A stretch of 64,000 nucleotides of DNA from Platanthera guangdongensis (lineage: Eukaryota > Streptophyta > Magnoliopsida > Asparagales > Orchidaceae), in contig CM077153.1 of assembly GCA_039583875.1 (NCBI GenBank), forward strand, positions 66,286,482-66,350,481, written 5' to 3'. Under the pieces are notes generated by a model. That model saw only the letters and a list, made by a program, of their open reading frames with translations, was not told the origin of the DNA and ran no database searches. Every line of letters starts with the position of its first letter. The stretch's first letter is position 1. Shown piece after piece: positions 824 to 53,995 of the stretch. A program made the translations under genes and the position numbers.

Positions 824-836
824 AATAGGGGGAGAT
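824..836 (+). promoter_or_regulatory. Polypurine tract of A1
   Basis: AATAGGGGGAGAT immediately precedes the LTR start TGTTGGG at 837. This is the usual Copia plus-strand priming site, and the same tract is seen next to the A2 LTR (53996-54009, minus strand) and in element B (9933-9945). Confidence 0.8.
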
Positions 837-981
837 TGTTGGGTACATTGGTTCTAATGTACCTAATTTGAAGAAGCCTCACCCTACTCAATGATATACA
901 TCAAAATGTATTTGATGTATTTTGAGTTGTCTTGTGCAGGTTAAGTATTTGCAGGAAAGATGAAAAAGTTTCTAAGTCCAT

Positions 982-1862
982 GTGTCGACACCCAGAGGGA
1001 AAGTATCGACACTTAAGAAGACTTGTGTCGACACCCAGGCAAGCAGTGTCGACACTTGGAGTACTTGTGTCGACACCAGGGATGCAGAGTCGACAACAGA
1101 CAGAAAGTGTCGACACAAGGAGCTGTGTCGACACTCAATGAAGAAACGTGCAGTGAAGCAGTGTCGACACTTAGCAGTTGTGTCTACACCCAGAGGAACT
1201 GTGTCTACATCAGAAAGTGTCGACACTTGGAGGCTGTGTCGACACTCAGCAAAAGTCAGCAGAGTCTAAGTATAAGTGTCGACATAATAAAGAATGTGTC
1301 GACACTCAGCAGAAGACTCAACACTTGAAGAAAGTGTCGACACAATGAAGAATGTGTCGATACATAGCAGAAGACTCAACACTTGAAGAAAGTATCGACA
1401 CAAGGAGCTGTGTCGACACTTAGCAAAGTTCAACAAAATTCTAAGTACAAGTGTCGACACTAAGGAAATGTGTAGACACTCAGCCAGAGTCTCGACAGAA
1501 GAAGAATGTGTCGACACATGGAACAGTGTCGACACTCAGCAAGTATCAACACAGAAGGCATGTGTCGACACCAAGAAGATGTGTCGACACTGAACAAGTT
1601 CAACACATGAAGATGTGTCGACACAAAGGTGTTGTGTCGACACTTACAAGAATTCAGCAAAGTGCTGAAGAACAAAGTATTGTGTCGACACTCAATATCA
1701 ATGTCGACACATAATGAAGAAGCTGTGTCGCGAAGTGCATTCTATAACACAAGGAGTTGTGTCGACACCTTGTAGGCTAGTGTCGACACTTATTCAACTT
1801 GTGTCGACACTTAGTCTATAAGTGTCGACACTTAAAGACAGACAGTCTCGACACTTACAGAC
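982..1862 (+). repeat. Cluster of the 10-bp palindrome GTGTCGACAC
   Basis: GTGTCGACAC is its own reverse complement. I count about 24 exact copies and roughly a dozen single-base variants (for example GTATCGACAC, GTGTCTACAC) in about 880 bp, irregularly spaced at 15-45 bp. The cluster ends about 130 bp upstream of the TATA box, so it sits in U3 where enhancer elements are expected. Sirevirus LTRs are known to carry palindromic clusters in this position; the motif here differs from the ones I remember. Confidence 0.9.
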
Positions 1863-1988
1863 AGATACAGTTATTTCAAGAACTGACTGGATGACTTGAC
1901 AGCTGCCATTCCAGCCGGTCTACTGCACCTATCAGAGTTGTCAGAAATCAGTTATGAACCGGACCAGCCGGTTACCATGAAGAAGGCC

Positions 1989-1996
1989 TATAAATA
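1989..1996 (+). promoter_or_regulatory. TATA box of the A1 LTR promoter
   Basis: TATAAATA followed by GG, a strong plant TATA box, 130 bp after the palindrome cluster. Transcription would start about 30 bp downstream. The same box lies at 44631-44638 on the minus strand in A2. Confidence 0.75.
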
Positions 1997-2360
1997 GGCT
2001 TATACTGTCTACAGAAACAGATGATCAACACATCAAGTTATACAAAGAAGATCTAGCTATTCATTGAAGAATCTAGTGAAGATCTAAGTAGTTGGAGAGA
2101 GAGAGCTCCATCCAATAAAGACAGCCGTTGGAACCAGGATGAGAAGAAGGATTTAGATTTTGTTCTGAATCTTAAGTAGCAGAGATCAAGGATCAACTGC
2201 AGAGGAGGTCAATCTTATTGTGTTCTACATTCAAGAAGCTTTGAAGAAAGCCAACTCAGGATTGATCTCAGATGAGTTCTTCCAAGAACTCATCAAGAAA
2301 CTCACAACTCTTCTCTCTTTTCTCTGAGTTGTAGAGTTTACATTTTGTATTCATATTATC

Positions 2361-2617
2361 TTGTAGGATCCTTTGGGATCTGAGTTTGTAAGCCTGTAAT
2401 TATAAAGGCTGAGTGTAGGGCCTGTGTGCCTGAGTGTAGGAGATTTGTATCTCTGAGTGTAGGCCTGTAGTGGCTGAGTGTAGGCCTGCTGTGGCTGAGT
2501 GTAGGCTTTGTGAAAAATCTGAGTGTAGGTCTTTGGAGAAGACTGAGTTGTAGGGCCTTGGGCCTGAGCTGTAGGAACCTGTGTTGGGATTCTGAGTGTA
2601 AGATCTGAGGATCTGAG
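2361..2617 (+). repeat. Array of about 11 small stem-loop units in the A1 LTR leader
   Basis: Units begin TGTAG and end CTGAG, and between these each unit has its own short inverted repeat: GATCC/GGATC, AGCCT/AGGCT, GAGAT/ATCTC, AGTCTT/AAGACT, AGGCC/GGCCT, AGATC/GATCT. A G after the opening AG is usually unpaired. Because the array lies downstream of the TATA box it would be transcribed. Related arrays occur in B, C, S and A2. Two units (starting at 2414 and about 2511) pair only weakly. Confidence 0.75.
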
Positions 2618-2874
2618 ATAGTGGAGGAGTTTGGCCGAATCTAGTACACTACTAGATAGGCGAAGGGGGAAAGTGGATGTACCCAAACCTTGGGGAACCA
2701 CTATAAATCTGTGTGTCTACTGTGTGCTGGATTGATTCTGTGATTGCTACTTGTGTGCTGTGATAAAGTAACTAGAACTCTGTGATATAATCTGAATTCT
2801 GCCTAAAAAGTTAAAAAGATTTACTCACCTATTCACCCCTCCCCCCTCTAGGTGAGTAGGTACAATATCTTTCA

Positions 2875-4954: not shown

Positions 4955-5198
4955 TGAAAATGTTTTAAGTTGTCTTACCTAAATCACCTAGATGGGGTGA
5001 ATAGGTGAGTTGTGTGCCTTTTTGCAGAATAAAAAAATTTAACGATCTATGCACAGAAAATCAACCAAGCCATCACAGACGACAACAAGAATTATAGTGG
5101 TTCCCCAACCTTGGGTACATATACTTTCCACTCACCGATCTAGCAAAACACTAGACTCGGCTACGCCACTAATCTCAGATTGAAACCAATCCTACACC

Positions 5199-5312
5199 TC
5201 GAGACAACGTTCCTACAACTCAATCCCAAATCTAGATCTACACTTGGAAGATAAAAACTTCCTACAAGAACTCGGAGAAAAAAACTCCTACAACTCGGAT
5301 AAAGATCTCCTA
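5199..5312 (-). repeat. Stem-loop units in the leader of solo LTR S
   Basis: On the minus strand about five units with linker GAGTTGTAGG. Two stems are perfect, GGAAG/CTTCC (5258-5262 with 5246-5250) and GGAG/CTCC (5285-5288 with 5274-5277); others are weaker. The array lies about 370 bp downstream of the TATA box at 5682-5689, matching its place in A1 and B. Confidence 0.65.
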
Positions 5313-5681
5313 CTATAATATAATGAAATAATAAATACAAACAGTGATTTATTCTCAGATCTGAAATCCTTCTGCCTATTCTTCTTTATTTGAGCTTTAC
5401 GACTTTATCAGAATTTGTTGAAGAAGAATCAACAATATCTGTAGATCTAAAATTCTCTGGAGTCACACAATGAAGTAGAAGATCTGTTGTTGAAAAGAAA
5501 CTCAATCTGTGAATCAACTTCTCTGAATCTATCTGAATCGAAAGTGCTTAGGCGATGAAGAAGAAGATTCGCGGCTCTCGATTTAGAAATAAAAAACGGA
5601 TTCTGAAAACTTAGAATTTCTTCTTGCGGCGGCTGAAATTCTTCTTAAAATCTTCTTCGGGTTGGTCAAAAATGACAAGAC

Positions 5682-5689
5682 CTTATATA
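5682..5689 (-). promoter_or_regulatory. TATA box of solo LTR S
   Basis: TATATAAG on the minus strand, about 125 bp downstream of the TTCTCGAGAA cluster. Confidence 0.6.
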
Positions 5690-5811
5690 AGATTACCCTA
5701 ACGGTCATAATCATCATTAATGACATCCACGTGGACCAATCGTGCGTAAATGATGTTTGAAATACATGTCTGTCTGGACTTAGTAATTTTCAGAAAAATC
5801 AGACTGGGTAT

Positions 5812-6445
5812 TCTCGAGAAGAAGGCTTTTACTCGAAAAAAAATGAATTCTATTACTCGAGAACAATAAGGAAATTCTCGAGAAAAATACTTAGAGAAAA
5901 ATGATGTGCAGAAAGAAAATAGCATTCTAGAGAAAGAAGTAAAGTATTCGAGAAAAATATCTTATAGCTCTCGAGAAGAACTATTTTGGTACTCGAGAAT
6001 GAAAGTCTGTCTCGAGAAAAATACTTAGAAAAATATGTGGAGGTGGAAATCTGCAGTGTCGAGAATGATAGAAGTACTCAAGAGAAATGATGTATTGTTC
6101 TCGAGAGGAAACATCCCGGTACTCGAGAATAAATAACTATACCGAGAACAAGAGTCTGGCTCTCGAGAAAAATACTATAGGTCTCGACAAATACCTTCTG
6201 TATCCCGAGAATAAAAGATAATCTTCTCAAGAATAATTTCATTCTTCTCGAGAAAAAGACTTAGAAAAATATTTATCTGGAAAAACAAACATCCCGATAA
6301 GAAATGTCATATTACTCGATAACAAAAGCCTTTCTCGAGAACACAAGAATCTTTCTCGAGAATAACTTCTGTTACTCGAAATGAAGACAAGTCTTACTCG
6401 AGAATAATCATTAGTCCTTGAGTACAAATATAGTACTCGAGAAAA
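5812..6445 (-). repeat. Cluster of the palindrome TTCTCGAGAA in solo LTR S
   Basis: TTCTCGAGAA and shorter forms (CTCGAGAA, ACTCGAGAA) recur more than twenty times in about 630 bp. The 10-bp form is a perfect palindrome with an XhoI-like CTCGAG core. It takes the same U3 position as GTGTCGACAC in A1. Confidence 0.88.
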
Positions 6446-6773
6446 AGACTTAGAATTTTTCTGAAAAACTTAAAATCTTGATTCTTCATAAAAATCAACA
6501 TCCATCTTTTCTCTTGCCCTTAGTGCTTGAAAAGGAAGTATGTCCCAATAGAGAGGCTACACATGAATCAACACCATGGATAACACAATGAGGGATTACA
6601 TTGTATGGTCCTGTGTTTGGAGACTCATTGTAGACTAACATTGGTCTACACTTAGTAATTAAGTCCTGTAAACACCTAACAAAAAGTGCATCAAATACAA
6701 ACTTAATTCATCTTAGTATAAGGGTGATTTCATACAAATCTAGGTTATTGTGGATGCAATACCCAACATTTAT

Positions 6774-9302
6774 ACTACTTGCATATGGACCTATTTGGTC
6801 CTATGCCAGTTCATAGTCTTTGTAAGAAAGTCTACACCCTTGTGGTGGTTGATGACTATTCCATATTTATTTGGGTGTTCTTTCTCAATAAAAAGAATGA
6901 AACCCATGATATCTTCATCAAGTTTTTTAAGCAAATTCAGAATGAGTTTAATAGTTCAGTGATAAAAATCAGAAATGACCATGGAACTGAATTCTAGTCT
7001 AAAAGCATGACAAAGTTCAGTGAAGAGCAAAGGATTCACCAAGATTTTTCTTCTCCAAGAACTTCCCAGCAAAATGGGATTGTTGAGAGGAAAAATAGGA
7101 CTCTCATAGAGGCTGGAAGAATATTATTGAGTGATACCTCTCTCCCAGTATATTTATGGGCTGAGATAGTGAATACTTCATGTCATGTCCTCAACATGGC
7201 CTCTATCACCAAGAGCCACAAGAAGACTCCCTATGAGATCTTGAAGGGCAGAAAACCAAACTTGTGTTATCTTAGAATCTTTGGTAGTAAGTTATATATG
7301 CTTCATAATGGGAAGTCCTATGTGACTAAGTTTGCTGTCAGGTCCTTTGATGAGATTTTTGTTTGGTACATCAATCATAGTAAAGCCTATAGGATCTACC
7401 ACTTGAAAAGCCAAGTTGTATAAGAATCTAAAAATGTAGTCTTTGATGAGTTTACTATGATTAACAGTGAACTGTCAAGCTCTTCTTCTAGTACTGCAGG
7501 TACAGTACACATGATGGACCAACTAATTATCAAAGAAGCTGCTCCAATAGTCCAAGATAAAGCTGATGGAATGGTAATTCCAGCAGAAGGACTGCAAGAC
7601 ACAAGTTAGGTGGATGTTGATAAGAAAGAAGCTACCCTAGTAGCTAATACTGAAGCAATATTTCCACCAGTAGTCAGGCATCTAAGGGATCATCTAAGAC
7701 ACCAGATCATTGGTGATGCCATCCAAGAAGTGGTGACCAGGAGCAGAAGTATTAACACAACACTATACTCAAGCTTCATGTCACAGGTTGAGCCAAAGAA
7801 ATTATAAGAGGCTAACATAGATCAGTTCTGTATTGTAGTTATGCAAGTTGACTGGACCAGTTTAGCAGATGTAAGGTCTGGAAGATGGTTCCCAGACCAC
7901 AAGGACATAATATCATTGGAGTCAATTGGATTTATAGGAATAAACTTGATGAAAATGGCATTATAATCAAGAACAAGGCAATGATAGTAGCTACGGGGTA
8001 CAAGCAAGAGGAAGGTATTGATTTTGATCAAACCTTTGCCCCTGTAGCAAGATTGGAGGCCATCAAACTATTCCTTACATATACTGCACACAAGTGATTC
8101 AAAGTCTTCCAAATGGATGCGAAGTCATCCTTCCTGAATGGTGACTTAAAAGAAGAAGTCTATGTTGAGTATCCTCTAGGTTTTATTATTCCTAACTCAC
8201 CTGATTCTGTTTATAGACTTTGGAAAGCTCTATATGGGCTGAAGCAAGCCCCTAAACCATGGGATGAGACATTGTCTAGCTTCCTTATTGAGAATAAATT
8301 ATCAAGGGGGAAGATAGAAAAGACCTTATTCCTAAGGGAATCTATGAGTAAGATCATCCTAGTCAAGATGTATATGGAGATGACATTATCTTTGGATATA
8401 CTGACGACAACCTTTGCAGGAAGTTTGCCAAACTTATGCAAGGGAAGTTTAAGATGAGCAGTATGGGTGAAATTTAGTTCTTCTTGGGCCTCAAAGTTAG
8501 ACATACTGATGATGGATTGTCTATATCCCAGTCTAACTTCACTAGAAAATTAATCAAGAAGTTTGGTATGGAGAATTCCTCCCCCATGAAAACTCCCATG
8601 AGGTCAAGTATGCCTATAGGTAAAGATGAGGCAGGGAAACTTGTTGATGAAACTTTGTATAGAGGGATAATTGGTTCCCTTCTATATCTAACTGTATGTA
8701 GGACAGACATAACGTATGCTACATGTGTTTGTGCTAGGTATCAGGCTTTCCCTAATGAATCTCACTACTCTGCTGTAATGAGAATTTTGATGTATCTTAA
8801 GGGCAAACCAGATCTTGGCCTATGGTAACCTAGAAATGAGGAGTTTGAGCTAATAGGTTATTCGGATGTAGATTTTTCAGGCTGCAAAGAGGAGAGGAAG
8901 AACACTTCTGGCACCAGTTAGTTCTTGGGAGGAAGACTAGTGTGTTGGAGTAGCAAGAAGGAAACAAATGTTGCAATCTCAACTATATAGTCAATGTACA
9001 TCTCAGCAGGTTGCTACTGTAGATCCGACATCAGCTCCAGGATTATAACCTCCAGATAAGTAGAAGTCCCTTATATTATGATTCTACTAGTGTCATCTCA
9101 ATTACTTGAAATTATGTCTCTCAGCAAAACTAAGCACGTTGAGATTAGATATCATTTCATTAGGGAGCATGTGGAATGTGAAGATATCAACCTTGAGTTT
9201 GTCCCTACAGACAAGCAAGTGGCTGACATCTTCACTAAGCCACCATATGAAGCAAAGTTCAATACCTTCAAGTTTGAGTTGGGTATGTTGAACCTTGTAT
9301 AG
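6774..9302 (+). pseudogene. B pol: integrase, reverse transcriptase and RNase H, degenerate
   Basis: Fragments in order: integrase core (6779-6997, MDLFGPMPVHSL, VVVDDYS, NDHGTEF) ended by TAG; integrase end with QQNGIVERKNRTLIE (7007-7423), so the third acidic residue is present; linker ending SQVEPKK (7610-7807); reverse transcriptase start [19 protein letters not shown] (7885-8097); FQMDAKSSFLNGDLKEEVYVE and YGLKQAPK (8113-8457); thumb region (8484-8828); RNase H and C-terminus with ADIFTKPPYEAKF, ending MLNLV (9078-9302). The catalytic YMDD segment near 8370 is lost by a small deletion, and RNase H is damaged between 8830 and 9080. At least eight stops or frameshifts; no product expected. 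Confidence 0.88.
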
Positions 9303-9945
9303 CTTCAGTTTCACCTCATATTGTTGCAAGTTTTTTTCTTGCAGGTGGAATTGTTCTTCAGTGGAATGAAAACTTTTAAAGTGGTATACCTTCAGTGGTA
9401 TCATGTTCAAGTACTTTCCAAACTGGTATAGACAAGAATGTCTACCAGGAAATATGATAGAGGATGTTGCAGTTGAGGGGGAGCAAGTCTAGCACTTGTA
9501 GAGGAAGATTCGAATGATATCATGTAGAGAAGGAGCAGCACACCTCTAGCACTCATAAGTGGGTCAACTGGTGCAAGAGTTGCTTTTCCATACTCAAAAA
9601 GTTGGAGCAAAAAATCAGTTCCTCCTTGAATATTTTCAGAAGTCAAAAATGGGAGGAGAAGGATATAAGTTAAGGAAAGTGGTATCAGATCTATAAGTGT
9701 ATTAGATACAAGAGTAGGATATGTGAGAAGGATACAAGGGGTATCAAAGTGATCAAGAGGCCAGGCAGCAATAATTAAGGGGGAGCTGGTGTGATGATGT
9801 TCATCCTACAGGCAAGGAAGTTTGGTAACTATAACTTGTTCTCTTGTTATATCTTTTCCAAGTTATTGTTCTATTGCTGCATATGTTAGTGTATGACATT
9901 GACTCATTTGATTGAGGGTTTTGACTTCTTCAAATAGGGAGAGAT
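9303..9945 (+). other. B 3' untranslated region and polypurine tract
   Basis: About 640 bp with no meaningful ORF, no motif cluster and no TATA box. It ends AATAGGGAGAGAT (9933-9945), the polypurine tract next to the 3' LTR. In A2 and C the equivalent place holds a motif cluster and the envelope-like ORF. Confidence 0.7.
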
Positions 9946-10146
9946 TGTTGGGTCCATTGCCCATAATGTCCCAGATTTGAATAAGTCAATCATGTCAATG
10001 ATATACTTAAAGTTGTATTTGATTTATATGTATGTTCATGCATGCAAGTTAGTCCTTGAAACATTGATAGGATAAGTATTCCAAGGGATGTTATAGGTGG
10101 TCACAAAGTAAATATATGGAGAGATAGAAATCTATCTAAGTCTACA

Positions 10147-10764
10147 GGCATTGAGTGAAGTCTGTTCACTCAATGCCAGATGTAAGGGAAGATGCTGGAT
10201 AGGCTGGAAATTGCCTAAGTCTACAGACATTGAGTGAAGACAGTTCACTTAATGCTAGATGCAATAAAGCGCTGAGTTATTTGTAGACAGTCAAAGCCAT
10301 GCATTCAACAAAGCAATTCTGCGGCTACGTCCACAAGCGTTGAGTGATGATAGTTCTCTCAACTCCATCGTCCAGTATAGCTGAGTCTGTCAATGCTAAA
10401 GCAGATGGCGACCAAGTACAAAAGCATTAAGTGATGAATCTTTACTCAACACCCACAACTCCAGATAGCAAAAGCGTTGAGTCTTGCTGCTGCGTCAAAG
10501 CCTAAGAAGAAGACAGAAATCAGCTGAGTCCAGAAGCGTGGAGTGAAGCTATTTCAATCAACACCCAATATAGAAGGCATGCAAAAGGAGACAGCGTTGA
10601 GTGAGGACAATTCACTCAATGCCTTTAGACAGATGAAGAAATGACTAAGTGTAAAAGCGTTGAGTGAATCCATTGCACTCAATGCTCTCAACACCTATGA
10701 TTTAGAATGATTCAGACTATTGACTAAGGGTTTGGGCATTGAGTGAAGCTTGTTCACTCAATGC
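10147..10764 (+). repeat. Cluster of GCRTTGAGTGA hairpins in B LTR
   Basis: About nine units in which GCATTGAGTGAA or GCGTTGAGTGA is followed after 5-9 bases by its inverted copy TTCACTCAATGC. Best units: GGCATTGAGTGAA at 10147-10159 with TTCACTCAATGCC at 10165-10177 (13-bp perfect stem, 5-base loop), and 12 bp at 10736-10747 with 10753-10764. Others carry one to four mismatches. Spacing is about 60-80 bp. It is the U3 equivalent of the palindrome clusters in the other LTRs. Confidence 0.88.
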
Positions 10765-10988
10765 ATTAAATGTCTGGAGTGAATTTGAGAAATTGGCTAA
10801 GTCCATAATCTGATGACGTCAGACAAAATTGACAAAGTCAAACATAATTCAAATTATTTTCGGTGAAGCTACAAAACACGACAAATACTGTCAGAGAGCT
10901 AATGTACGTCTTCTTCCATTAAAGAAAGGTGCATTTGTCTGCTACAGGTGGTCCCCACTACTTCTTGGAGTCGTTAATGTGTGGAAGA

Positions 10989-10996
10989 TATAAAGA
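10989..10996 (+). promoter_or_regulatory. TATA box of the B LTR
   Basis: TATAAAGA in GGAAGATATAAAGAGG, about 225 bp downstream of the hairpin motif cluster and 440 bp upstream of the stem-loop array. Confidence 0.65.
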
Positions 10997-11431
10997 GGAA
11001 ACTATTGTATGTTGAACTCAACTTTTAGGGGTTTGTTTCAAAAAGAAAAAGAGCGGCTGGATTTCATCTTCCTGACCATTGCTGGCGGAAAAAAGCTGGA
11101 AGTCGATTTGCTAAACTAAAAGTTCAGTCAAGTTAGTTGTAGCATTTTCTTAAGCGACAGCAAGTTCAGAAACACTTATGATAAAGAAAGAGAGGAGAGC
11201 CTTCAGTCTTCTGAAGGTTCAGGTTAGTTGTTTGAAGAACTCAAGACCTAGAGATCTTCAGTCTTCTACAGCAAGTTCAGAAATAATTTTTTGAGATACT
11301 TCCAGCAAAGGCAGCCATTTATTAAAGAACACTTTTTGTTATTGTGACGATAAATAGAGGTGAGATAACTCAGCTCTAGTAGTAGACATAGAGAAATTTC
11401 TCTGTGTCAAATTAATTAAAACTATTGTATT

Positions 11432-11840
11432 CCTGTAGGATCCTTTTGGATCTGAGAAGTAGAGCTTTTGAGTCTAAGGAAGGGCAGTTTTGCCTGAGCT
11501 GTAGGAGATTTATACTCTCTGAGTGTAGGATCTAGCTTGGATCTAAGGTAGGTGATCATTTGAACACTGAGCTGTAGGTCTTTTGAGCTTGAGGCAGGAG
11601 AGTCATTGTCTTTGAGTTGTAGGGCACTTGTGCCTGAGTTGTAGGATCCTTTGGATCTGAGGTAGGGCCTTTGTTCCTGAGCTGTAGGTGAGTCTTTCTA
11701 TCTGAGGTAGGATCCTTTGTGTATCTGAGGTAGGGCTGTCCTCCCAGCCTAAGTTGTAGGGCATTTGGGCCTGAGGTAGGTGATCAGTTGATCACTGATT
11801 TGTAGGAGCAAATTTGCTCTGATGTAGGGCTTTGGACTGA
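11432..11840 (+). repeat. Array of about 17 stem-loop units in B LTR leader
   Basis: Each unit reads GTAG, usually an extra G, then a private inverted repeat, then CTGAG. Clear stems include AGATCC/GGATCT (11438 and again 11643), AGGCA/TGCCT (11482 and 11630), AGAGA/TCTCT (11503), AGATC/GATCT (11527), AGTGATCA/TGATCACT (11778-11796) and AGAGCAA/TTGCTCT (11804-11820). Stem sequences differ, yet most close, and a G after AG is bulged in most. Four or five units pair poorly. Lying downstream of the TATA box, the array would be in the leader RNA. Confidence 0.8.
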
Positions 11841-12152
11841 GTTGTAAGCCTTGTAGGAGACAGAGAGATCCTGTAGGATCTGTGGTGTAAGCTATTGGAG
11901 CTGAGTTTTGGAGAAGTGCCTTATCTAATGAGAATTTAGAAAGGTGGGAGGAGAGTGAACATACTCAAAATCTGGGGAACCACTATATATTATGTGTTTG
12001 CCTTCTTGTGTTATTTCTTTATTACTGGTTCTTGAATGCAAATAACTACTAACACACTAAGCAATTACAAAAGAAAATAAAAGAAAGTCACAAGAAACCA
12101 AGAAACCTATTCACCCCCTAGGTTGCTAGCTACCTTAAAACAAAGACTTTCA

Positions 12153-13741
12153 GAACTTAAGAAGCTTATTATGGGTCCCTTAATTTCTCGATACGTATAG
12201 CATACTGATTTGATTGTCGAGAGTATAACATTTATTCGAGGATAGGAGCCAACTTGATTGCTCGAGTCTGGCAGATTCTGGGTATTTTAGAGAGATTGAT
12301 TTTTTTTTCTTCAAAAATCAACCTCATGAATATTTTCAAAATAAAGGAAAAATTCGATCATTTGAATCGAGGTTGGCATTTCTGTACTCCATTCTTGTAT
12401 CGTTCATTTCCTGATATGCTCAAAACACACAAGAGTTACTTTTAAAAATGCTTGATGATTTGCAAAATCCATGTATCGCTTCGAGCTTGAGATTCCATCT
12501 CTATAAATCTCGTCATTATTTATTTGAAAAATAATTCATAAATTATATCTCAATCGCACACTATGATTTCTTCCTAAAAATATTTGAACAAATCAAAAAT
12601 TTAAGCATGACCCTTTTGTTCCAAAAAATTGTAGAACCACCAATTTTTACCCAAAAGTCCCCAATTTTTTATATAACATCAAAGTTGGCCTATTTTGAGT
12701 ATAGAAAGTTTTCCAAAATTTTCCAACCAATTTTGGGTGTTTAATTTGGCCAAATAAATTTTATTTAGGAATTTAAAATACCAAATCAAATTATAAAAAT
12801 TCCAACAAAATTATGGAGATAGCCCTCAATATGGGGAACAACTTTCATGTTCAAACATTTTTCCCTAGAAGCCTAGATTTCTCTCAGAAAAATCATCAAT
12901 TTTCAGTTATAATTTTGGTCTGCATATAGCAATCATTACCCTAAACCCATGGCTGAGATTGAGCCAGATGGTGCACTTTATACTTTTATCTCCCCACAGT
13001 GGATCTGGCGTCGATCTTTCTTGTGGGGGGGGGGGGATTTATAAATCCCTGATCGTCTGGTATCCAGACGTAGATCAGACGGCGGCTGGAGGTTCCCGAC
13101 AACAAAAGCTTATGGGCTTCAACCGTCGCCGCCTGGCAGTCGTCAGGCCACATCACCTCCCCCGGCCAACTTGTCGGGGGCCAGTGATTCATTTAGTGGT
13201 GGTATGGTGGCCAGGCGCTGCCGACCAACGCAGAGAAAACTCAACCCGAAAGAGTATGGCGCGACCAGCTCTTTTCCCGGCGACATCGCACCACCCCGCC
13301 TCTTTGGTGGCTCTCATACCACATCCCCTCTCTTTCCTACCAGCAATGTGGGATTATGTTCCCATAGAGGAGAGTAGTTCCTCTTCCTCCAGCCGTCTAA
13401 GACAGCTGGTATTCATCAGGGATGGAAGTACTGCTATGTGATAGTGATCAATGAGGGTTTATATTTTGTGGAACTTGGCTTGGAACATAGAGAAGGGAGT
13501 GGAGAGACTTTTTGGCCTTTTGGGCTATTTCTAAGGTCTCATTTTCCATGGGGATTTGTTGTCCAAGAGAACACCTAGAAATGGGCCCAAGATGAGCAAA
13601 AGGTGGGGGCTTGGGTTGGAGAAATCCACCTTTGGAAATTTTCCAAAAAGAAGATGGGGGTTGACAAAAGTAAACCCTAGGTTGGGTCCCTCATGTGGGT
13701 AAAAGTAAAAGTTGGTCCAAGTCCTCCTAGGATGAGTCAAT
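12153..13741. other. Unassigned, mostly AT-rich DNA
   Basis: No recognisable gene or element end. 12153-12950 is AT-rich with long runs of A and T. 12960-13440 is locally GC-rich and holds a 160-codon ORF (12959-13441) with no familiar motif, low complexity near its end and biased composition; I do not call it a gene. A 12-base G run and two nested inverted repeats lie at 13025-13082. 13450-13741 resembles nothing I know. It may be an old LTR or host intergenic DNA. Confidence 0.4.
13025..13082. repeat. G12 run followed by two inverted repeats
   Basis: Twelve consecutive G (13025-13036), overlapping the 16-bp palindrome GGGATTTATAAATCCC, then CGTCTGG-TAT-CCAGACG, a 7-bp stem with 3-base loop flanked by GAT and ATC sequences that extend it imperfectly. 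Confidence 0.7.
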
Positions 13742-16589: not shown

Positions 16590-16725
16590 ACCTTGTAGGA
16601 AGTTGTTTGCTTCCATTTTTTTGTAGATCCTAATTTAGAGGATCGAGTGTAGGATATGTTGCTCTCCGAGTTTGTAGGAGTGGGAGACTCTGAGTTTGTA
16701 GGAGTGGGAGACTCCGAGTTATGAG
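16590..16725 (+). repeat. Stem-loop units in C LTR leader
   Basis: Five units with linker GAGTTTGTAG: GGAAG/CTTCC (about 16597-16613), GATCC/GGATC (16626-16644), a weak one, AGAGT/ACTCT with a bulged G, and GGAGT/ACTCC. In the last two neighbours the closing base and the pairing change together. Confidence 0.7.
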
Positions 16726-16852
16726 ATTATTATTAATCTTTGTTTTTGTGAAGTAGTCGAGTCTAGCCCGAAGTGATAGATAGGCGAGGTGGGACAGTGG
16801 ACGTACCCATTTTGGGGAACCACTCTAAATCATTATGTTTGTGTTGTGATTG

Positions 16853-16870: not shown

Positions 16871-16971
16871 GTGTGCTTTATTTTGATTAAATTTTTTTTC
16901 ACTATAAGATGCAGAACTCACCTATTCAGCCCCATCTAAGTGATTTAGGTTAACAACTAGATACTTTCAAT

Positions 16972-20482: not shown

Positions 20483-21070
20483 AAACTAAGTTTAATAAAA
20501 AAATGTTTTGAAAGTATTTTCGTAGGATATAGTAGCCATAGTAAGACATATAAAATTTTTAATAAGAAAACCCTGGTTGTAAAACAATCCATTAATGTCA
20601 TATTTGATAAGACAAGTATGCTTCATAGAAACACTTCTAGTATTTTTGTTGAAGATGCAGGTTCACGGCTAAAAGAGATAGGTTTAGAAGAAGCAGTTAA
20701 AGAAGATGTCGCAAGTTCCATCAAAGTAAATTTTCCAATTTTGGTTGAAGAAGAAGAACATCGGGATGATGAACGTAAACTAAGTTTAGTAAAAAAATGT
20801 TTTGAAGGTATTTTTGTAGAATATAGTAACCATAGTAAGGCATATAGAATTTTCAATAAGAAAACCCTAGTTGTAGAAGAATCCATTAATGTCGTATTTG
20901 ATAAGACAAGTATGCTTCATAGAAACACTTATAGTATTTTTGTTGAAGATGTAGGTTCACGACTAAACGAGATAAGTTTAGAAGAAGCAGTTAAAGATGA
21001 TGTCTCAAGTTCCATCAAAGTAAATTCTCCAATTTTGGTTGAAGAAGACGAGCATCAGGATGAAGAACGT
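20483..21070 (+). repeat. In-frame 294-bp tandem duplication in C pol
   Basis: 20483-20776 and 20777-21070 are two copies, both beginning AAACTAAGTTTA. Each encodes about 98 residues (CFE.IFV.YS.HSK, KKTLVV..SINV.FDKTSMLHRNT, SIKVN.PILVEE). The copies differ at several residues, so the duplication is not recent. The frame is kept. Confidence 0.9.
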
Positions 21071-23036: not shown

Positions 23037-24570
23037 ATGACCAGGGGCAGAAATTCTGGGCTACCACCATTTTATCCTGACCCAGAGCGAATTATTCATA
23101 ACACCAACCAAAGGGACGTGGGAGTTAATACCGCAGACATTTCAAACGAACTATTAGAAGAAGAAATAGTTAACCAAGGAGAGAATCATCTGGAAAATTT
23201 AGACACCATGGCCAATCAGAATGAGAAAACTATGTCTGACTTTGCTATACCTAATCTCCAAGGAACTGGGTCAAGCATCGTTAGACCGCCCAATAGTCAC
23301 AAATAACTTTTAGTTGAAGCCTAATGTTATACAGATGGTTCAACAGTATGTCCAGTATGATGGCCTGCAAGATGAGGATCCTAACAGCCACTTGGCCGGA
23401 TTCCTGGAGATATGTGACACATTCAAGATCAATGGTGTTTCCAACGATGCCATTCGATTGAGATTATTTCCATTCTTGTTAAGGCATAAGGCGAAGCAGT
23501 GGTTGAATTCATTACCTAGAGGGTCGATTACTACTTGGGATATGATGGTTGAGAAGTTTTTGATGAAGTATTTCCCACCGGCAAAGACTGCAAAGCTAAG
23601 GAATGACATCTCTAAGTTTATGCAATTGGAATCTGAATCGTTGTACGACACATGGGAACGATTCAAGGAACGTTTGAGGAGATGTCCCCACCATGCTCTA
23701 CCTTCATGGCTTCAGATTCAGACCTTCTACAATGGTCTCAATACGGCCACTAAACAGATGATTGATGCGGCTAGTGGAGGCACTTTGAATAACAAGACAC
23801 TTGAAGCGGCTCAGCAGATGATAGAAGATATGGCTATGAACAACTATCAATGGACTACCGTAAGACAAAAGCCTAGTAAGCCCGTAGGAATGTATGAAGT
23901 GGATGCTGTCACCTCCTTAGCCATTCAAGTGGAGAAGCTTCACCAAAAGATGGATAATCTTGCCTTAGCATCACCCTCCATGGCACCTCAACAATGGGAC
24001 CCTTCATGTAATGGAATGCCTAGTTGTGAACCTTCAATACAAGAGCATGTTGACTATATGGGCAACAATATTAGACCTCCATTCAACCAAGTAAACAACC
24101 TGTATAGTTCTACATACAATCCTGGATGGAGGAACCACCCCAATTTCTCTTGGGGAGGACAAGGTAATCAAGGGAAGCAACCTATGTTTGGACAACAACA
24201 ACAACCAAAACCAAGGAAGCCTACTTTAGAAGATGTGCTCACTAAGTTCATGCAAACTACCGATGTAGCCTTCCGGAATCAAGAGGGCTCGATTCGGAAT
24301 TTAGAGAATCAGATTAGACTGCTTGCATGGATGGTTTCTGAAAGGCAACAAGGAACACTTCCAGGAAATACTGAGTCAAATCCAAGGGACCATGCGAAAG
24401 CCATTCAATTGAGGAGCGGAAAGGAGTTACAAGACCCAAGGCCTACAAAGGAAGCACCCCAAATGGAGTCTAGCGGCGTAGGACCAAGCAAGATGAACGT
24501 GCAACCGATGGAATATCAACCAGCAGTACCATACCCAGCAAAGCTTAACAAGGAGTGCATGGATGCGTAG
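23037..24570 (+). pseudogene. E gag
   Basis: First ATG at 23037 (MTRGRNSGLPPFYPDPERI), 89 codons, then a frameshift plus a TAG near 23290-23312. The main gag frame runs 23314-24570 with the retrotransposon gag domain (KQWLNSLPRGSITTWD, FPPAKTAKLRNDI, ESESLYDTWERFKERLRRCP, FYNGL) at about residues 10-140. After it come a Gln/Asn/Pro-rich spacer, a helical segment (FMQTTDVAFRNQEGSIRNLE) and the AIQLRSGKEL motif common in this family. No zinc knuckle is visible, as usual for Athila. TAG at 24568-24570 separates it in frame from the protease. Confidence 0.9.
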
Positions 24571-43410: not shown

Positions 43411-44039
43411 GCAGGCCGCCAGCCCTTCGGGCCAGAGGCACCCTCCTCCGGGGATTCCACAGTCGCCCATTCCCCCTGGGCTGGGGAAATCCTTCGCATT
43501 TCTTGATGGAGGACTCTTCCAGGGCCGGCTGGGCTCCTCTCGGCCATCAGCTGGTGCGGGCGACATGCTGACACTCGGTGAGCTCGTACTTGGGCCTGCT
43601 TGTTATCGCTTGTTCCCCCTGAGCCCCCCTTTTGCAGGTTTCAACGTGATGTCCTCCTCTGATTTTGAAATGAGCGATGGATATTCGTCTCCTTCTGATA
43701 CAAATCACATTTCAGAGTATCTAGGCGACCCGATGGATGCGGAGGGTATGAAGAGTGAAAGATATTGTACCTAATCACCTAGAGGGGGCGGGGTGAATAG
43801 GTGACTCAAATCTTTTTAACTTTTTAGGCAGAATTCAGTTTATATCACAGAATTATAACTACTTTTGCACAACAATCAATCAGCAATCACAGCAAAACAC
43901 ATACACACAGTGAACACCCAGGTTTATAGTGGTTCCCCAAGGTTTGGGTACATCCACTTTCCCCCTCCGCCTATCTAGTAGTGTACTAGATTCGGCCAAA
44001 CTCCTCCACTATCTCAGATCCTCAAATCTTACACTCAGA

Positions 44040-44262
44040 ACCCCAAAACAGATTCCTACAGCTCAGGCCCAAGGCCCTACAACTCAGTCTTCTCCAAAGA
44101 CCTACACTCAGCTTCTTCACAAAGCCTACACTCAGCCACAGCAGGCCTACACTCAGCCACAATAGGCCTACACTCAGAGATACAAATCTCCTACACTCAG
44201 GCACATAGGCCCTACACTCAGCCTTTATAATTACAGGCTTACAAACTCAGATCCCTAAGGAT
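44040..44262 (-). repeat. Stem-loop array in A2 LTR leader
   Basis: Ten or eleven units corresponding to the A1 array (2361-2617), for example AGATC, AGGCC/GGCCT and AGTCTT/AAGACT units and GAGAT/ATCTC. Present downstream of the TATA box at 44631-44638 on the minus strand. Confidence 0.72.
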
Positions 44263-44630
44263 CCTACAAGAAATATAAAATATAAAGTGTATCTACCTAC
44301 AACTCTGAATAGAGAGATGAGTTGATAGGTTCTTGATGAGTTCTTGGATGAACTCTGCTGAGATCAATCTGTCTTGGCTTTCTTCAAAGCTTCTTGAATG
44401 TAGAACACAATAGGATTGATCTCCTCTGCAGCTGATCCTTGATCTCTGCAACTAAAGATTCAGAACTAGGTCTGAATCCTTCTTCTCAGCCTGGTTCCAA
44501 TAGCTGTCTTCTTGGATGGAGCTCTCTCTCTCCAACTACTTAGATCTTCACTGGATTCTTCAATGAATATCTAGATCTTGTGTGTATTACTTGATGTATT
44601 GATCATCACTTTCTGTTGACAGTATAAGCC

Positions 44631-44638
44631 TATTTATA
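44631..44638 (-). promoter_or_regulatory. TATA box of A2 3' LTR
   Basis: TATAAATA on the minus strand, matching 1989-1996 in A1. Confidence 0.7.
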
Positions 44639-44779
44639 GGCCTTCTTCATGGTAACCGGCTGGTCCGGTTCATAACTGATTTCTGACAACTCTGACAGGT
44701 GCAGTAGACCGGCTGGAATGGCAGCTGTCAAGTCATCCAGTCAGTTCTTGAAAAATCTGTAACTGTCTGAAAGTGTCGA

Positions 44780-45510
44780 GACTGTCTGTCTTTAAGTGTC
44801 GACACTTATAGACTAAGTTTCGACACAAGTTGACAAAGTGTCGACACTAGCCTTCAAGGTGTCGACACAACTCCTTGTGTTATATAATCCACTTCTCGAC
44901 ACAACTTCTTCTTCATGTGTCGACACTGATATTGTGTGTCGACACAACTTCTTGTTCTTCAGCACTTAGTTGAATTCTTGTTAGTGTCGACACAACCCCT
45001 TTGTGTCGACACATCTTCATGTGTTGAACTTGTTCAGTGTCGACACATCTTCTTGGTGTCGACACATGCCTTCTGTGTTGATACTTGCTGAGTGTCGACA
45101 CTGCTCCTTGTGTCGACAGATTCTTCTTCTGTTGAGACTCTGGCTGAGTGTCAACACATCTCCTTAGTGTCGACACTTATACTTAGAATTTTGTTGAACT
45201 TTGCTAAGTGTCGACACAGCTCCTTGTATCGACACTTTCTTCAAGTGTTGAGTCTTCTGCTGAGTGTCGACACATTCTTTCTTGTGTCGACACTTTCTTC
45301 AAGTGTTGAGTCTTCTGCTGAGTGTCGACACATCTTCTTCATTATGTCGACACTTATACTTAGACTCTGCTGACTTTTGCTGAGTGTCGACACAGCCTCC
45401 AAGTGTCGACACTTTCTGATGTAGACACAGTTCTTCTGGGTGTCGACACAACTGATAAGTGTCGACACAGCTTCACTGGACTTTTCTTCATTGAGTGTCG
45501 ACACTTTCTG
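44780..45510 (-). repeat. GTGTCGACAC cluster in A2 LTR
   Basis: More than twenty exact copies and several variants over 730 bp; the remaining five copies lie at 53757-53850 beyond insertion F. Confidence 0.9.
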
Positions 45511-45531
45511 TCTGGTGTCGACTCTGCATCC

Positions 45532-46684
45532 TGTTGGGTTTCTCTATGAGGATGGCACAACGCTTGTGCACGCAGCGGAAAAATAAACATCAAGAAAAAA
45601 ACCCAAAGAGATGTGGATCGGGCCATGAACGTTGAATTAAGAAGTTAGCAAAAACTAGGCAAAAATTACCTCGGTGGCGTTGAGTCACAACTCAACGGAG
45701 ATGCTCCAAACTTTGATTTCTGCTAGTGGCGAGTTCTTCGTGGAATAGTGTCCACGTTTCTGCAGAAGTCCACACGAGCGGGAGAACACCGGTCTTTCTG
45801 TCACACGGAAGATCGGGATGGAGAAGACCGCACCTCTGCTATTCCACGGACTGCTAGGTCCGCGCCAGGAAGAGCAGCACCAGTGACAGTCGCTGGAGAA
45901 GAGGAGGTCGACGGAGCGAACACGGCAGCGGACCTCTTCCGGCGGCGGGAATCGGGATCGGCGGAGCGAACGAGCGAAACTCTTCCGTCGGGTTCGATTC
46001 GCTACAGGAGAAAATTGCGAGAGAGAGAGTTCCCGAAAACCCTAAGTGTCCTATTTATACCAAAGGGATAAATAAACCCAGGAAAATCGCTATCCGCAGA
46101 CCACCCGAAAATAGGGTTCAGAATCGGCGAGTATCAATCGGTGAGAATCGGCGACAATCGGCGAGAATCACTGAGCAGGTTCGGCGAGAATCAGTCGACG
46201 AGTATCATACAGGATCGGCGAGAATCAGAGTATAATACTCGACGATTCTCGCCGATCGTCGAGCCGCGCTCGACGATACACAACGATACTCGACGATCGT
46301 CGAGCCGCGGTCGACGACAATTGTCGAAGTAGTCGATCGTCGAGAATCAACAATTGATTCTCGATGATTCTCGTCGATCGGCGAGAATCAGAGAGACGAT
46401 TCTCGCCGATCGGAGGGAATCAGAAGACGATTCTCGACTAATGTCATCGACCCTCGGACGACAATCCCAACCAGCCATTCAAGGCAACATTTGCCCAACT
46501 CGATGATCCTATAAGGCAACACTTTGCCCATAACCCTATTCAGGTCGGTGATTGGTAACCTTTACCAACACAGTCAGTCATCCAACTTCTCCACATCTCT
46601 TATGTGCGACCCTGCAGGCTCATATCGCGTTGGCAGTGAGATTACATGCTTGATCACTTCCAGATCACAATGGTAACTCCAACA
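45532..46684 (-). repeat. 3' LTR of F, 1153 bp
   Basis: Plus-strand reading TGTTGGGTTTCTC to TAACTCCAACA. Same length as the 5' LTR. Contains the GGCGAGAATC cluster (46110-46445) and, on the minus strand, TATAAATA (46052-46059). Confidence 0.93.
46110..46445 (-). repeat. GGCGAGAATC / CTCGACGAT cluster in F 3' LTR
   Basis: About twelve copies of GGCGAGAATC or its complement GATTCTCGCC and eight of TCGACGAT or TCGTCGAG. Many are head to head, so the region can fold on itself. It lies upstream of the TATA box on the transcribed strand; the 5' LTR has the same cluster at 53185-53510. Confidence 0.82.
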
Positions 46685-47653
46685 GACTCCCACTTGATCT
46701 CGAAAGTATCAAAGCAAAAACCTCACAAACAATGAGCGGCATCTAGCAATGCATCATTGCTCCCCAAGCAATAAGAGTTTATAACTCATAAGCCTTTATG
46801 ACCAATGTATCAGCGTTGTCTTTGTCCCTTTGTCCCTTACATCCGGAAAGAACTAGAGGTATGGACCGTGTCACCCTCGTAATAGCTCAATCCTAGTTTC
46901 TTGATCCAGGACGGACTTCCAGAGAATGGTGAGTCCAATATCACATATTGACTCAACCAAGCATGGCCATGCATTTCTCAGTCCAGTTCCATCAAGGGGC
47001 CCATGGATGCAACTCCTGTCATACAGGAGGACAAATCCCATATCTGCTCACACACAAACACCCAAATGATTCGTAACATGCCCAACAACCACCCTTATCA
47101 TCAACCTTTCTCAAGGAAGACTTTAGATGGCATCAAAGCACGCTCTTCCTCACTTGATGAATGCTGTGACTTCAGGTCAAAGGATCACAACACCATTGTC
47201 AATTGAGACCTACTCGTGACACGATTGGATGACAATCCACAGAGTAGTCTCAGGTTGGGTCTGTCCAGTACAACTTGTTCACTAACAAGTACCCACGTGA
47301 TAACTTGATATCACAATATCATGACCTGTGAGAACCAGTCATCAGTCAACACACGTGCTAGTCTTCATGTACCATTATCACCCTTAGCTTCTATGATGAT
47401 ACTCGACCAGGGACCTTTAAGAATGAAGCTTCAAATAAATCATGGGCTCTCACATTCAAGTCATGTACTTGATGTCCCATGGAAGCGAACATTCTAAGGG
47501 TATCTATTATGTTAACATTTAACTATCATATATAGAAAAATTCATAATAAAAGAATTTTCCATTAATTATAAAAGAAAAACTAGGTACACAGTTCATCAT
47601 ATGAACAAACAGCCAACAAAATACAAGATTACATGCAACCCACAAGATTCTCG
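46685..47653 (-). other. F 3' untranslated region and polypurine tract
   Basis: About 970 bp between pol and the 3' LTR. The tract AAGTGGGAGTC adjoins the LTR (46685-46695 read in reverse). Nothing else recognised. An ORF of 67 codons at 47003 is incidental. Confidence 0.65.
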
Positions 47654-50600
47654 CTAGAGTTGATCATTTAGGTATCGTATACCCATCGATCTAGTTTGAC
47701 CATCATGCTTTCTCTGCGCGAGAGGCTTTGTCAGCGGATCCGCAATATTTTCCTCTGTCGGCACTCTGCAAATGTTTACATCTCCTCGTTCGACAATCTC
47801 ACGAATAAGATGAAAATGCCGGAGTATGTGCTTGGAGCGATGATGAGATCTAGGTTCCTTAGATTGTGCAATTGCACCATTGTTATCACAGTAGAGAACT
47901 ACGGGACCAACAATGTTAGGAACTACATCAAGCTCGCCGATGAATTTCCTAATCCATACAGCCTCCTTCGCCGCATTAGCTGCTGCGATATACTCGACCT
48001 CTGTTGTAGAATCAGCAACTGTCTCTTGCTTGGAACTCTTCCAGCTCACAGCTCCTCCATTCAGGCAAAACACAAAACCTGACTGAGACTTGGAGTCATC
48101 TCGATCAGTTTGGAAGCTAGCATCCGTGTAACCACTTACAACGAGCTCTTCCTCTCCACCATACACCAAGAACACGTCCTTAGTCCTTCTCAAGTACTTC
48201 AGGATATTCTTGACTGCAATCCAGTGACACTCACCGGGGTCTGACTGATACCTGCTAGTCATGCTCAAAGCAAAGGAGACATCGGGTCGAGTACATAACA
48301 TCGCGTACATAATTGATCCAATTGTCGAAGCATATGGAATCAACTTCATGCGGTCCTTATCTTCACAAGACTTTGGACACTGGTCCTTAGAGAGATTCAC
48401 ACCATGAGACATGGGCAAAAATCCTTTCTTGGACTCAAGCATGTTGAACCGCTTCAACACCTTTTTGATGTACGTACTCTGGGTCAAACCCAGCAACTTC
48501 TTCGATCTATCTCTATAGATCTTAATACCGAGTATATAAGTCGCTTCACCCAAATCCTTCATTGAAAAGCAGTTCCCTAGGTTGTTCTTAACAACTTTCA
48601 GGGTAGGAATGTCATTCCCAATCAACAATATGTCATCTACATACAATATCAGGAAGACAACAATGCTCCCACTGATTCGCTTGTAAACACAAGGCTCATC
48701 TTCATTCTTGATGAAACCAAACTCTTTGATTTTCTCATCAAAACGAAGATTCCAACTTCGAGAGGCCTGTTTCAGTCCATAAATGGACTTATTCAGCTTG
48801 CATATTTTAGTGGCTTCATCTGGGGATACAAAACCCTCGGGTTGTGTCATATACACTTCCTCAAGGAGGTTTCCATTAAGGAAAGCCGTTTTGACATCCA
48901 TCTGCCAGATCTCGTAGTCATAATACGCAGTAATAGCAAGCAATATCCTAATGGACTTTACCATGGCAACAGGGGAAAAGGTCTCATCATAGTCAATACC
49001 ATGAATTTGCTTGAAACCCTTAGTCACTAGTCGCCCTTTGAATGTCTGTACATTCCCATCCATGTCGGTCTTCTTCTTGAAGACCCACTTGCACCATATG
49101 GGTCATACCCCTTCAGGTGGTTCCACCAAGTTCCAAACTTGGTTTGCATACATGGAGTCCATTTCGGATTTCATAGCCTCAAGCCATTTGTCGGAGACCG
49201 ATCCATCCATAGCCTCTTGGTAGGTTGCTGGTTCATCATCATGATCCATAAGCAACACATTACCTATTTGAGACACGAGAAATCCATATCTCTCAGGCTC
49301 AAACCTCGGTCTACCAGATCTATGTAGGACTTGTGTTCCCTGAGCAGGTTCTCTAGCTACAACATCTTGTAGTCCTGTCTCAGAATCCAATTCTGGTTCA
49401 TTCACTACATGTGGTTATTGAACTTCTTCAAGCTCTACCTTTTCAGTCTTTCTTGATAAGAACTCTTTCTCCAAGAAGACACCAGTCCTTGCGACAAACA
49501 CTTTGCCCTCAGACGGTAGGTAAAAGTAATACTCTTTCATTTCCTTAGGATATCCCACCAGATAACATTTATCCGATTTGGGTTCCAGCTTGTCAGGCAT
49601 TTGACGTCTCACGTATGCCTCACAACCCCAAATTTTAATGAACGACATACTAGGACGCTTCCCAGTCCATATCTCATATGGTGTCTTCAGAACCGTTTTA
49701 GTTGGAGCGCGATTCAATGTCATTGCAGCAGTCTCTAAAGCAAAACCCCAAAAGGAAACATGCAAGTCTGCATGACTCATCATCGAACGTACCATGTCTA
49801 ATAGAGTACGATTTCTCCTCTCAGACACACCATTATGTTGTGGTGTTCTAGGTGGAGTGAGCTGTGATACAATACCACACTCTTTCAGATGATCACGGAA
49901 CTCATGACTCAGGTATTCGCCACCTTAATCAGATCGGAGTGCTTTAACCCTTTTACCCAACTGGTTTTCTACTTCATTCTTGAACTCTTTGAACTTTTCA
50001 AAGGTCTCGGATTTGCACTTCATAAGATACACATATCCGTATCTACTGAAATCATCAGTAAATGTAACAAAGTAGAAATACCCTCCTCTAGCCATGGAAC
50101 TCATGGGTCCGCATACATCACTATGTACAACACCGAAGAGATCCTCAGCCCTCTCAGTATAACCAGTGAAAGGAGCTTTAGTCATCTTGCCTAACAAACA
50201 AGATTCGCATCGCTCAAATGATTCATAATCAAATGAGTCCAAAAGTCCATCTCTATGGAGCTTGGATATGCGCTTCTCGTTGATATGGCCAAAACGACAA
50301 TGCCAGAGAAAAGTAGGGTTCGAATCATTTGTTCTTAGTCTTTTATTATTTTCTACATTACATATCAGATGGTCCAAGTTCAAAACGTAAAGACCATTAG
50401 ACAATTGGGCTACAGCATAACAAACATCATTCTTAAATATAGAACAACAATTGTTCTTAATTATAAAAGAAAATCCAATCATGTCCAAACATGAAATAGA
50501 TATAATGTTTCTAGTTATCGCCGGAACAAAATAACAGTGATCTAGTTCTATTACAAGCCCACTGGGCAAAGAAAGACGGTAAACTCCTACGGCTACAGCA

Positions 50601-52575: not shown

Positions 52576-52593
52576 AACCTCGCTCTGATACCA
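52576..52593 (-). promoter_or_regulatory. Primer-binding site of F, initiator tRNA-Met
   Basis: On the minus strand TGGTATCAGAGCGAGG, one base after the 5' LTR; the first 12 bases match the complement of initiator tRNA-Met exactly. Confidence 0.88.
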
Positions 52594-52594
52594 C

Positions 52595-53747: not shown

Positions 53748-53752
53748 CATCC

Positions 53753-53995
53753 CTGGTGTCGACACAAGTACTCCAAGTGTCGACACTGCATGTCTGGGTG
53801 TCGACACAAATCTTCTTAAGTGTCGACACTTTCCCTCTGGGTGTCGACACATGGACTTAGAATCTTTTTCATCTTTCCTGCAAATACTTAACCTGCACAA
53901 GGCAACTCAAAATACATCAAATACATTTTGATGTATATCATTGAGTAGGGTGAGGCTTCTTCAAATCAGGTACATTAGAACCAATGTACCCAACA
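53753..53995 (-). repeat. 3' LTR of A2, first 243 bp
   Basis: On the minus strand begins TGTTGGGTACATTGGTTCT at 53995, as in A1 (837). It carries the first five copies of GTGTCGACAC and is cut by element F after 53753. Confidence 0.9.

Follow-up and report, generated by a model that had tools for sequence, protein, structure and literature searches.

Hairpin arrays in Sirevirus-type LTRs

We found an array of 18 small hairpin units in the 3' LTR of a broken Copia/Sirevirus element, and the same unit rule in four other LTRs, which confirms the hairpin array described in an earlier note on this DNA. Altogether, 51 units are present in five of the five Sirevirus-type LTRs found in the window (arrays A to E), these five being the LTRs detected by the GGGGAACCAC block, the linker and the polyC signal, so that LTRs lacking these features are missed. 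We propose, with a probability of roughly 0.35, that the array forms part of the 5' leader of Sirevirus genomic RNA, where it would act as a transcribed, multivalent element with linkers bound by Gag. The window is the whole stretch of DNA that was analysed, 64,000 nt of Platanthera guangdongensis (Orchidaceae; GCA_039583875.1, CM077153.1:66,286,482-66,350,481, forward strand). Element A and its LTR, the home of array A, have the following features.

7007-8828 (+): pol fragments of element A, with RVT_2 in ORFs 8113-8457 and 8484-8828 (the latter match under the Pfam cut-off) and SH3_retrovirus in 7007-7423
9936-9947 (+): PPT-like AGGGAGAG plus AT/TG of LTR A, a degenerate Sirevirus PPT junction
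9946-12152 (+): LTR A, 2,207 bp, 3' LTR carrying array A
10989-10995 (+): TATA-like box of LTR A, TATAAAG, 446 bp ahead of array A
11435-11843 (+): array A, 18 contiguous hairpin units of 20-26 nt each, head to tail and gap-free
11844-11910 (+): degenerate tail of array A, including the stem AGATCC-TGTA-GGATCT, excluded from all unit counts
12110-12121 (+): polyC signal TTCACCCCCTAG of LTR A

LTR A ends in ...TTTCA, with the final CA at 12152. It was classified as a 3' LTR because no primer site follows 12152 and Copia RT pieces lie upstream. The pol region of the element is interrupted by LTR D, and pol matches were found on both flanks of this insertion. LTRs are copies of one template, and the content of a 3' LTR is therefore also expected in the 5' LTR and hence in the leader of the genomic RNA. 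The distance from the TATA-like box to the array is 446 bp, for which the earlier note gave about 440 bp. The placement of the array in the leader of the genomic RNA, also claimed before, is reasonable, as the array lies downstream of the TATA-like box and AUG triplets are scarce there.

The units of array A follow the rule GTA[G-G-private stem-loop-stem-C-T]GAG, with small variation between units. The earlier count of about 17 units at 11432-11840 has to be corrected to 18 units at 11435-11843, followed by degenerate ones to about 11910. Likewise, the first G within the bracket, previously regarded as unpaired, forms a G·U pair in all 18 units, its partner being the T in CTGAG or in the corresponding sequence. 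Thirteen of the 18 are closed at pairs 2-4 and five are broken there. Not every stem is private to its unit, as GATCC-type and GGGC stems repeat inside the array. Across the arrays, the linker consists of GAG, 0-3 bases in most units, and then (U)GUA, and most linkers carry TAG or TGA. Linker and two outer pairs hardly vary, in contrast to the remaining stem and the loop. Unit cuts in array A follow the linkers and were listed by hand, two of the linkers having diverged (TAAG/GAAG and GCAG).

Arrays B to E were found with tandem-repeat and self-comparison tables and by searches for the linker and the GGGGAACCAC block.

837-2874 (+): LTR B, 3' LTR, TATA at 1989
827-838 (+): PPT AGGGGGAG AT/TG of LTR B
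2363-2617 (+): array B, 11 units, 10 of them closed at pairs 2-4
2832-2851 (+): polyC signal of LTR B
43756-53995 (-): LTR C, TATA at 44638, split by a nested element at about 45531-53747
54005-53994 (-): PPT of LTR C
44267-44013 (-): array C, 11 units, 11 closed at pairs 2-4
43797-43779 (-): polyC signal of LTR C
4955-6768 (-): LTR D, solo, TATA at 5689, an insertion within pol of element A that has a 5-bp duplication, ATAAA
5313-5174 (-): array D, 6 units, 4 closed at pairs 2-4
5001-4988 (-): polyC signal of LTR D
16595-16718 (+): array E, with 4 of its 5 units closed at pairs 2-4; its 5' LTR ends in CA at 16969 and is followed by ATTGG

In all five LTRs the array starts 305-446 bp downstream of a TATA-like box, all of these boxes being assigned from sequence alone. 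The GGGGAACCAC block occurs five times in the window, always 68-131 nt beyond an array and ahead of a polyC signal, which is degenerate in LTR E (TTCAGCCCCATCTAAG). A hairpin without linker at about 16724-16739 was excluded from array E, and unit E1, whose linker is not GAG, was taken to end on the right at its stem. LTRs B and C are 91.5% identical over 1080-2874, the other three LTRs being less similar. The element nested within LTR C (45531-53747) has 1,154-bp LTRs that are 97.7% identical. Elsewhere in the window, we noted the plant snoRNA snoR71 (RF00097) at 23593-23698 (-), with 45.7 bits against a cut-off of 40, and a 294-bp unit in two tandem copies, about 91% alike, at 20483-21070.

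The motif set of Sireviruses comprises PPTs, a PPT inverted repeat, TATA, the primer junction and the polyC signal, in addition to RM boxes, which are palindromes upstream of TATA (PMC2829016). The PPT AGGGGGAG followed by AT/TG at the 3' LTR is exact in B and C and degenerate (AGGGAGAG) in A, and is inapplicable to the solo LTR D and the 5' LTR E. For the inverted repeat around the PPT, the right arm is expected about 28 bp inside the LTR; the best 16-letter arm was found 29 bp inside, with 14/16 letters in A and 12/16 in the near copies B and C. A polyC integrase signal lies near the 3' end of LTRs A, B, C and D and is degenerate in E. The Sirevirus 5' junction is CA/ATTGG plus TATCAGAGC, and at LTR E, the sole 5' junction, CA/ATTGG is kept and the primer site is degraded. 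Sireviruses are further expected to have a Copia-type pol that clusters with those of other Sireviruses in an RT tree; element A contains RVT_2. Upstream of the TATA box, the U3 of LTR B (837-1985, +) contains 24 copies of the palindrome GTGTCGACAC; their place is taken in LTR A by TTGAGTGAA/TTCACTCAA, with 7 copies, and LTR D has CTCGAG (14, one more downstream of TATA). These U3 palindromes of LTRs A, B and D are RM-like boxes without a CGG-CCG core.

Two further structures follow array A.

11918-11945 (+): single-copy hairpin 3' of array A, GCC..TCTAA / TTAGA..GGT, from alignment and pair counts
11964-11983 (+): short stem CTCA/TGGG, overlapping the conserved GGGGAACCAC

The four TCTA/TAGA pairs of the single-copy hairpin are constant in all five LTRs, and the stem behind it is CCCA/TGGG (CTCA/TGGG in A), then GAACCAC. 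Sliding the hairpin region in register lowered pairing to 23-46%. Over the five sequences, pairing was not above column shuffles (95.7% of 69 cells vs 94.2%; 116/500 reach it), and two pairs had a double change, a number reached by 41/500 shuffles. The structure formed by this hairpin and CCCA/TGGG, drawn from the same five sequences on which it was tested, is no more than suggestive.

Complementarity of the private stems

We compared the two arms of each unit at private pairs 3-6. The 51 units comprise 46 distinct cores (41 in arrays A to D, 46 with E added), and 130 of their 166 pairs were Watson-Crick, with 7 G·T, 2 A·C and 27 other combinations. Swapping right arms between units gave a mean of 47.5 ± 6.3 Watson-Crick pairs and a maximum of 70, so that none of 5000 swaps reached 130; as the units are paralogous, counts over units are not independent. 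For 14 dissimilar representatives, the left arms of which differ by at least two letters, 42 of 53 private pairs were Watson-Crick relative to a swap mean of 15.3 (0/5000). Array E taken alone was matched in its Watson-Crick count by 98/5000 swaps.

The summed hairpin energy of array A was -63.5 kcal/mol. The earlier note had named equal numbers of closed stems in shuffled sequences with the same linkers as a refutation. Shuffled interiors with constant ends kept gave -18.9 ± 5.1 kcal/mol, and 0/1000 reached the observed value. Swapped right halves gave -27.9 ± 7.5 kcal/mol (0/2000). Because neither type of control reached the observed value, the unit-by-unit complementarity of array A goes beyond composition or linkers. 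Arrays B, C and D had summed energies of -47.2, -52.1 and -14.1, again reached by 0/1000 interior shuffles each. Swaps of right halves within an array reached the observed energy in 0/2000 cases each for A, B and C, and in 15/2000 for D.

The pairing is tied to one register. Overall, 72% of the positions paired (131/181), which fell to 28% and 22% after a slide by one base and was 12-34% over slides of 1-4. Each private position shows all four Watson-Crick pair types (arrays A to D, 41 distinct cores), and 16 different three-base private stems occur among the 37 closed of the 46 distinct units. At the bottom pair we counted 35 G·T, 8 G-C, 3 A-T and no A·C in these 46 units.

Sequence constraint and template switching

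The near copies B and C differ at 0/80 linker, 5/118 stem and 5/57 loop positions. For the linkers, about 7 changes would be expected at the flanking rate and about 4 at the U3 rate. By region, differences amounted to 37/369 in the leader before the array, 21/251 after it, 43/888 in U3 and 10/255 in the array.

Compensating stems might also result from mutational upkeep, in which tandem duplication is combined with polymerase or reverse-transcriptase template switching at quasi-palindromes, rewriting one arm from the other. Such switching is reported to create perfect stems in one mutation event and to help maintain them (PMC8794818). Array A does contain an internal duplication (11452-11661 vs 11634-11841, 72%), the divergence of stems and loops between B and C is not very different, and one of two pol stretches had twice the shuffled number of stems of at least 5 bp (32 vs 16.0, 2.0 fold; the other 21 vs 15.5, 1.4 fold). 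But perfect stems of this length exceed shuffles 2.9-8.6 fold in the arrays, compared to 0.6-2.2 fold in the flanking leader. Moreover, switching writes perfect pairs, yet most units have G·T at the stem base, and the fixed register relative to the linkers is left unexplained. We regard mutational upkeep as an unlikely source of the array.

Predicted RNA folding

When the arrays were folded with their flanks and without restriction, private hairpins with P>0.5 were kept in 2/18 (A), 2/11 (B), 5/11 (C), 1/6 (D) and 2/5 (E) units. Limiting the pairing span to 24 nt or less raised these numbers to 9/18, 8/11, 11/11, 2/6 and 3/5. Shuffled interiors at 24 nt had means of 0.3-0.5 and maxima of 2, 2, 1, 2 and 2 for A to E, so that the result for array D merely equals its best shuffled control. 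At spans of up to 40 nt, 6, 5, 7, 1 and 2 hairpins had P>0.5, and at up to 80 nt 3, 5, 3, 1 and 2. Compared with dinucleotide shuffles, folds of the arrays alone had a modest advantage in energy or none (z of -2.4, -2.5, -1.9, -0.5 and -1.1 for A to E). Folding of 11300-11900, which the earlier note had suggested as a check, yielded a z of -3.49 (0/20 shuffles), but the predicted structure is long-range and not a row of hairpins. In the fold of 11300-11985, longer-range pairing likewise displaces most private hairpins and 2/18 keep P>0.5. According to these models, the hairpins would prevail only with local folding, folding during transcription or the help of a protein; alternatively, the constraint may not act on the equilibrium RNA fold.

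Sense folding beats antisense folding in arrays A to D as long as the bottom pair is kept. After removal of this pair, both were about equal in A, B and D, and C alone favours sense (-35.1 vs -26.9). Inside the stems, G·T outnumbers A·C 10 to 3 (46 units). The bottom G·T pair and this excess point weakly to sense RNA, the sample being too small for more. The earlier attribution of the array to selection for RNA structure is thus upheld in part: private complementarity lies far beyond chance, but unrestricted folds drop most of the hairpins, G·T exceeds A·C by just 10:3, and template switching offers an alternative.

AUG content of the leader

We counted ATG over LTRs A, B, D and E, with C excluded for its close similarity to B; in some analyses the slices stop one or several bases away from the LTR ends listed above. 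Observed and expected numbers were 77 vs 62.7 in U3, 4 vs 14.0 between TATA and array, 2 vs 14.8 in the array and 9 vs 19.7 behind it, which adds up to 15 vs 48.5 after TATA over the four LTRs. The control word CAT gave 57 vs 61.9, 16 vs 22.7, 4 vs 3.4 and 7 vs 11.0 for the same regions. As few ATG as in arrays A to E were found in 0, 0, 5, 74 and 243 of 500 shuffles, the values for D and E not being significant. ATG is scarce after TATA and not before it, as would suit a transcribed leader in which upstream AUGs are avoided.

These counts also bear on a translational function. The array could serve as a leader in which weak, self-contained hairpins keep the RNA AUG-poor, easily scanned and free of stable long-range structure, and no linker-reading protein would be needed. 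AUG is indeed scarce in both leader and array, and each hairpin taken singly is weak, with -1 to -9 kcal/mol in most cases. However, AUG scarcity within a repeat amounts to few independent events, long-range structure is predicted for the array anyway, and the absence of linker changes between B and C finds no explanation. We consider a purely translational role rather improbable.

UGUA in the linkers

TGTA is present in 42 of the 51 linkers, and one could assume that the linkers act in 3'-end formation, as UGUA elements upstream of a poly(A) site, with each hairpin looping out RNA so that cleavage factor Im meets a pair of UGUAs. A NUDT21 dimer binds a pair of UGUA motifs in the same RNA if they are separated by 7 nt or more, and in human and mouse the motif is enriched 40-100 bp ahead of cleavage sites (PMC10476966). 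The conserved GGGGAACCAC block downstream of all five arrays would be compatible with such a function. But in LTR A just 10/18 linkers contain TGTA, and such a role leaves the GAG side of the linker unaccounted for. Furthermore, the R region of Sire LTRs, a different clade, was inferred to be very short, with poly(A) near TATA, which would place the array in U5 (PMC3601003). We consider 3'-end formation quite unlikely. A reading of UGUA as Pumilio site was rejected, as the following bases (mostly GG) are unlike the Pumilio consensus.

Proposed function and related sequences

Taken as a whole, the array looks like a docking strip for a protein. If it is a leader element, each unit would fold locally in the cell into a small hairpin closed mostly by G·U and G-C. 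The constant part would be the single-stranded linker between hairpins, GAG-(U)GUA, evenly spaced and open. Stems would be free to change as long as both halves change together, their roles being to space the linkers and to hold them open. The Gag protein of the element itself may bind the repeated linkers together with stem bases and thereby gather, dimerise or package genomic RNA. The choice of Gag as the reader is a guess, made because an array of similar layout in the 3' UTR of alfalfa mosaic virus provides an analogy. A bolder version, which we consider doubtful, assumes a lineage-wide Sirevirus element of 5-18 compensating mini-hairpins with a GAG-(U)GUA linker read by Gag, the private stems of which could pair two genomic RNAs of one family in register and so act as a family label for co-packaging. 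The idea of a label is weakened by the GATCC and GGGC stems that recur within array A.

To our knowledge, little is known about the cis-acting RNA signals of plant Ty1/copia elements. A leader element with compensating stems, if true, would open the study of how Sirevirus RNA is selected, packaged, ended and translated. Being repeated and easily recognised, the array would also flag leaders in genome annotation. Since one array holds many stems, it could serve as a test bed for selection versus template switching as the source of compensating stems. Sireviruses account for a large share of certain plant genomes, for example 21% of maize B73 (PMC10760457).

We also looked for relatives elsewhere. 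Pattern scans gave at least 120 and 94 stretches of viral contigs and 17 stretches of prokaryotic genome contigs, with one match each among the matches listed. In 231 records analysed for density of linker clusters, none was as dense as the + strand of the window; record L219 had 8 in 250 bases and the rest at most 5. Six dense records were inspected and rejected as relatives, as they contain short tandem runs without private-stem units, several of them resembling repetitive coding sequence; record L229 (4) lies outside these six. Protein-guided scans of viral contigs (4, 7 and 4 pattern matches) confirmed no relative. No Rfam family reached its curated score in 10950-12160, the best match having 14.7 bits against a cut-off of 40 (E up to 1); the single match at gathering score in the window lies outside this region. 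Such an array is not described in the open-access titles and beginnings of abstracts searched, and an earlier mention in a 2016 Genome Research paper on maize palindromes is possible. The results section of PMC2829016, as excerpted, mentions no array after TATA.

Comparison with known systems

A similar layout is found in the 3' UTR of alfalfa mosaic virus, in which linear stem-loops flanked by AUGC motifs form several coat-protein sites (PMC9414508). The likeness to our arrays, linear stem-loops with a constant short motif, is one of architecture alone, as the hairpins described here are not the predicted global fold. The viral array differs in being located in the 3' UTR of an RNA virus, in its AUGC motif and in that binding is established by experiment (PMC9414508); a sequence relation is not claimed. 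The bipartite UGUA sites of cleavage factor Im resemble the linkers in that UGUA is repeated at a spacing fit for paired binding (PMC10476966). Hairpin arrays are not described in the excerpt of that paper, and 9/51 linkers here are without UGUA.

The RM boxes and palindrome clusters of maize Sireviruses are similar in that short self-complementary units are arrayed in Sirevirus LTRs (PMC2829016, PMC5311732, PMC10760457). A further explanation would be that the arrays are divergent Sirevirus palindromic motifs that work as regulatory DNA or give rise to small RNAs. Palindromes of maize Sirevirus LTRs are small-RNA hotspots and were called rapidly evolving (PMC5311732), and repeated palindromes also precede TATA here, as seen for the 24 copies in LTR B. 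However, half-sites that vary by unit leave no constant palindrome for a DNA-binding dimer, and a function at the level of DNA or silencing appears very unlikely to us. The differences from RM boxes are threefold. RM boxes are a single repeated palindrome, with more than 85% identity in 10 of the 13 elements in Table 3 of PMC2829016, whereas the stems described here vary by unit. Twelve of these 13 have a CGG-CCG core (PMC2829016); our arrays share a nearly constant linker. Finally, RM boxes are located upstream of TATA (PMC2829016), whereas the hairpin arrays lie downstream of it in each of the five LTRs.
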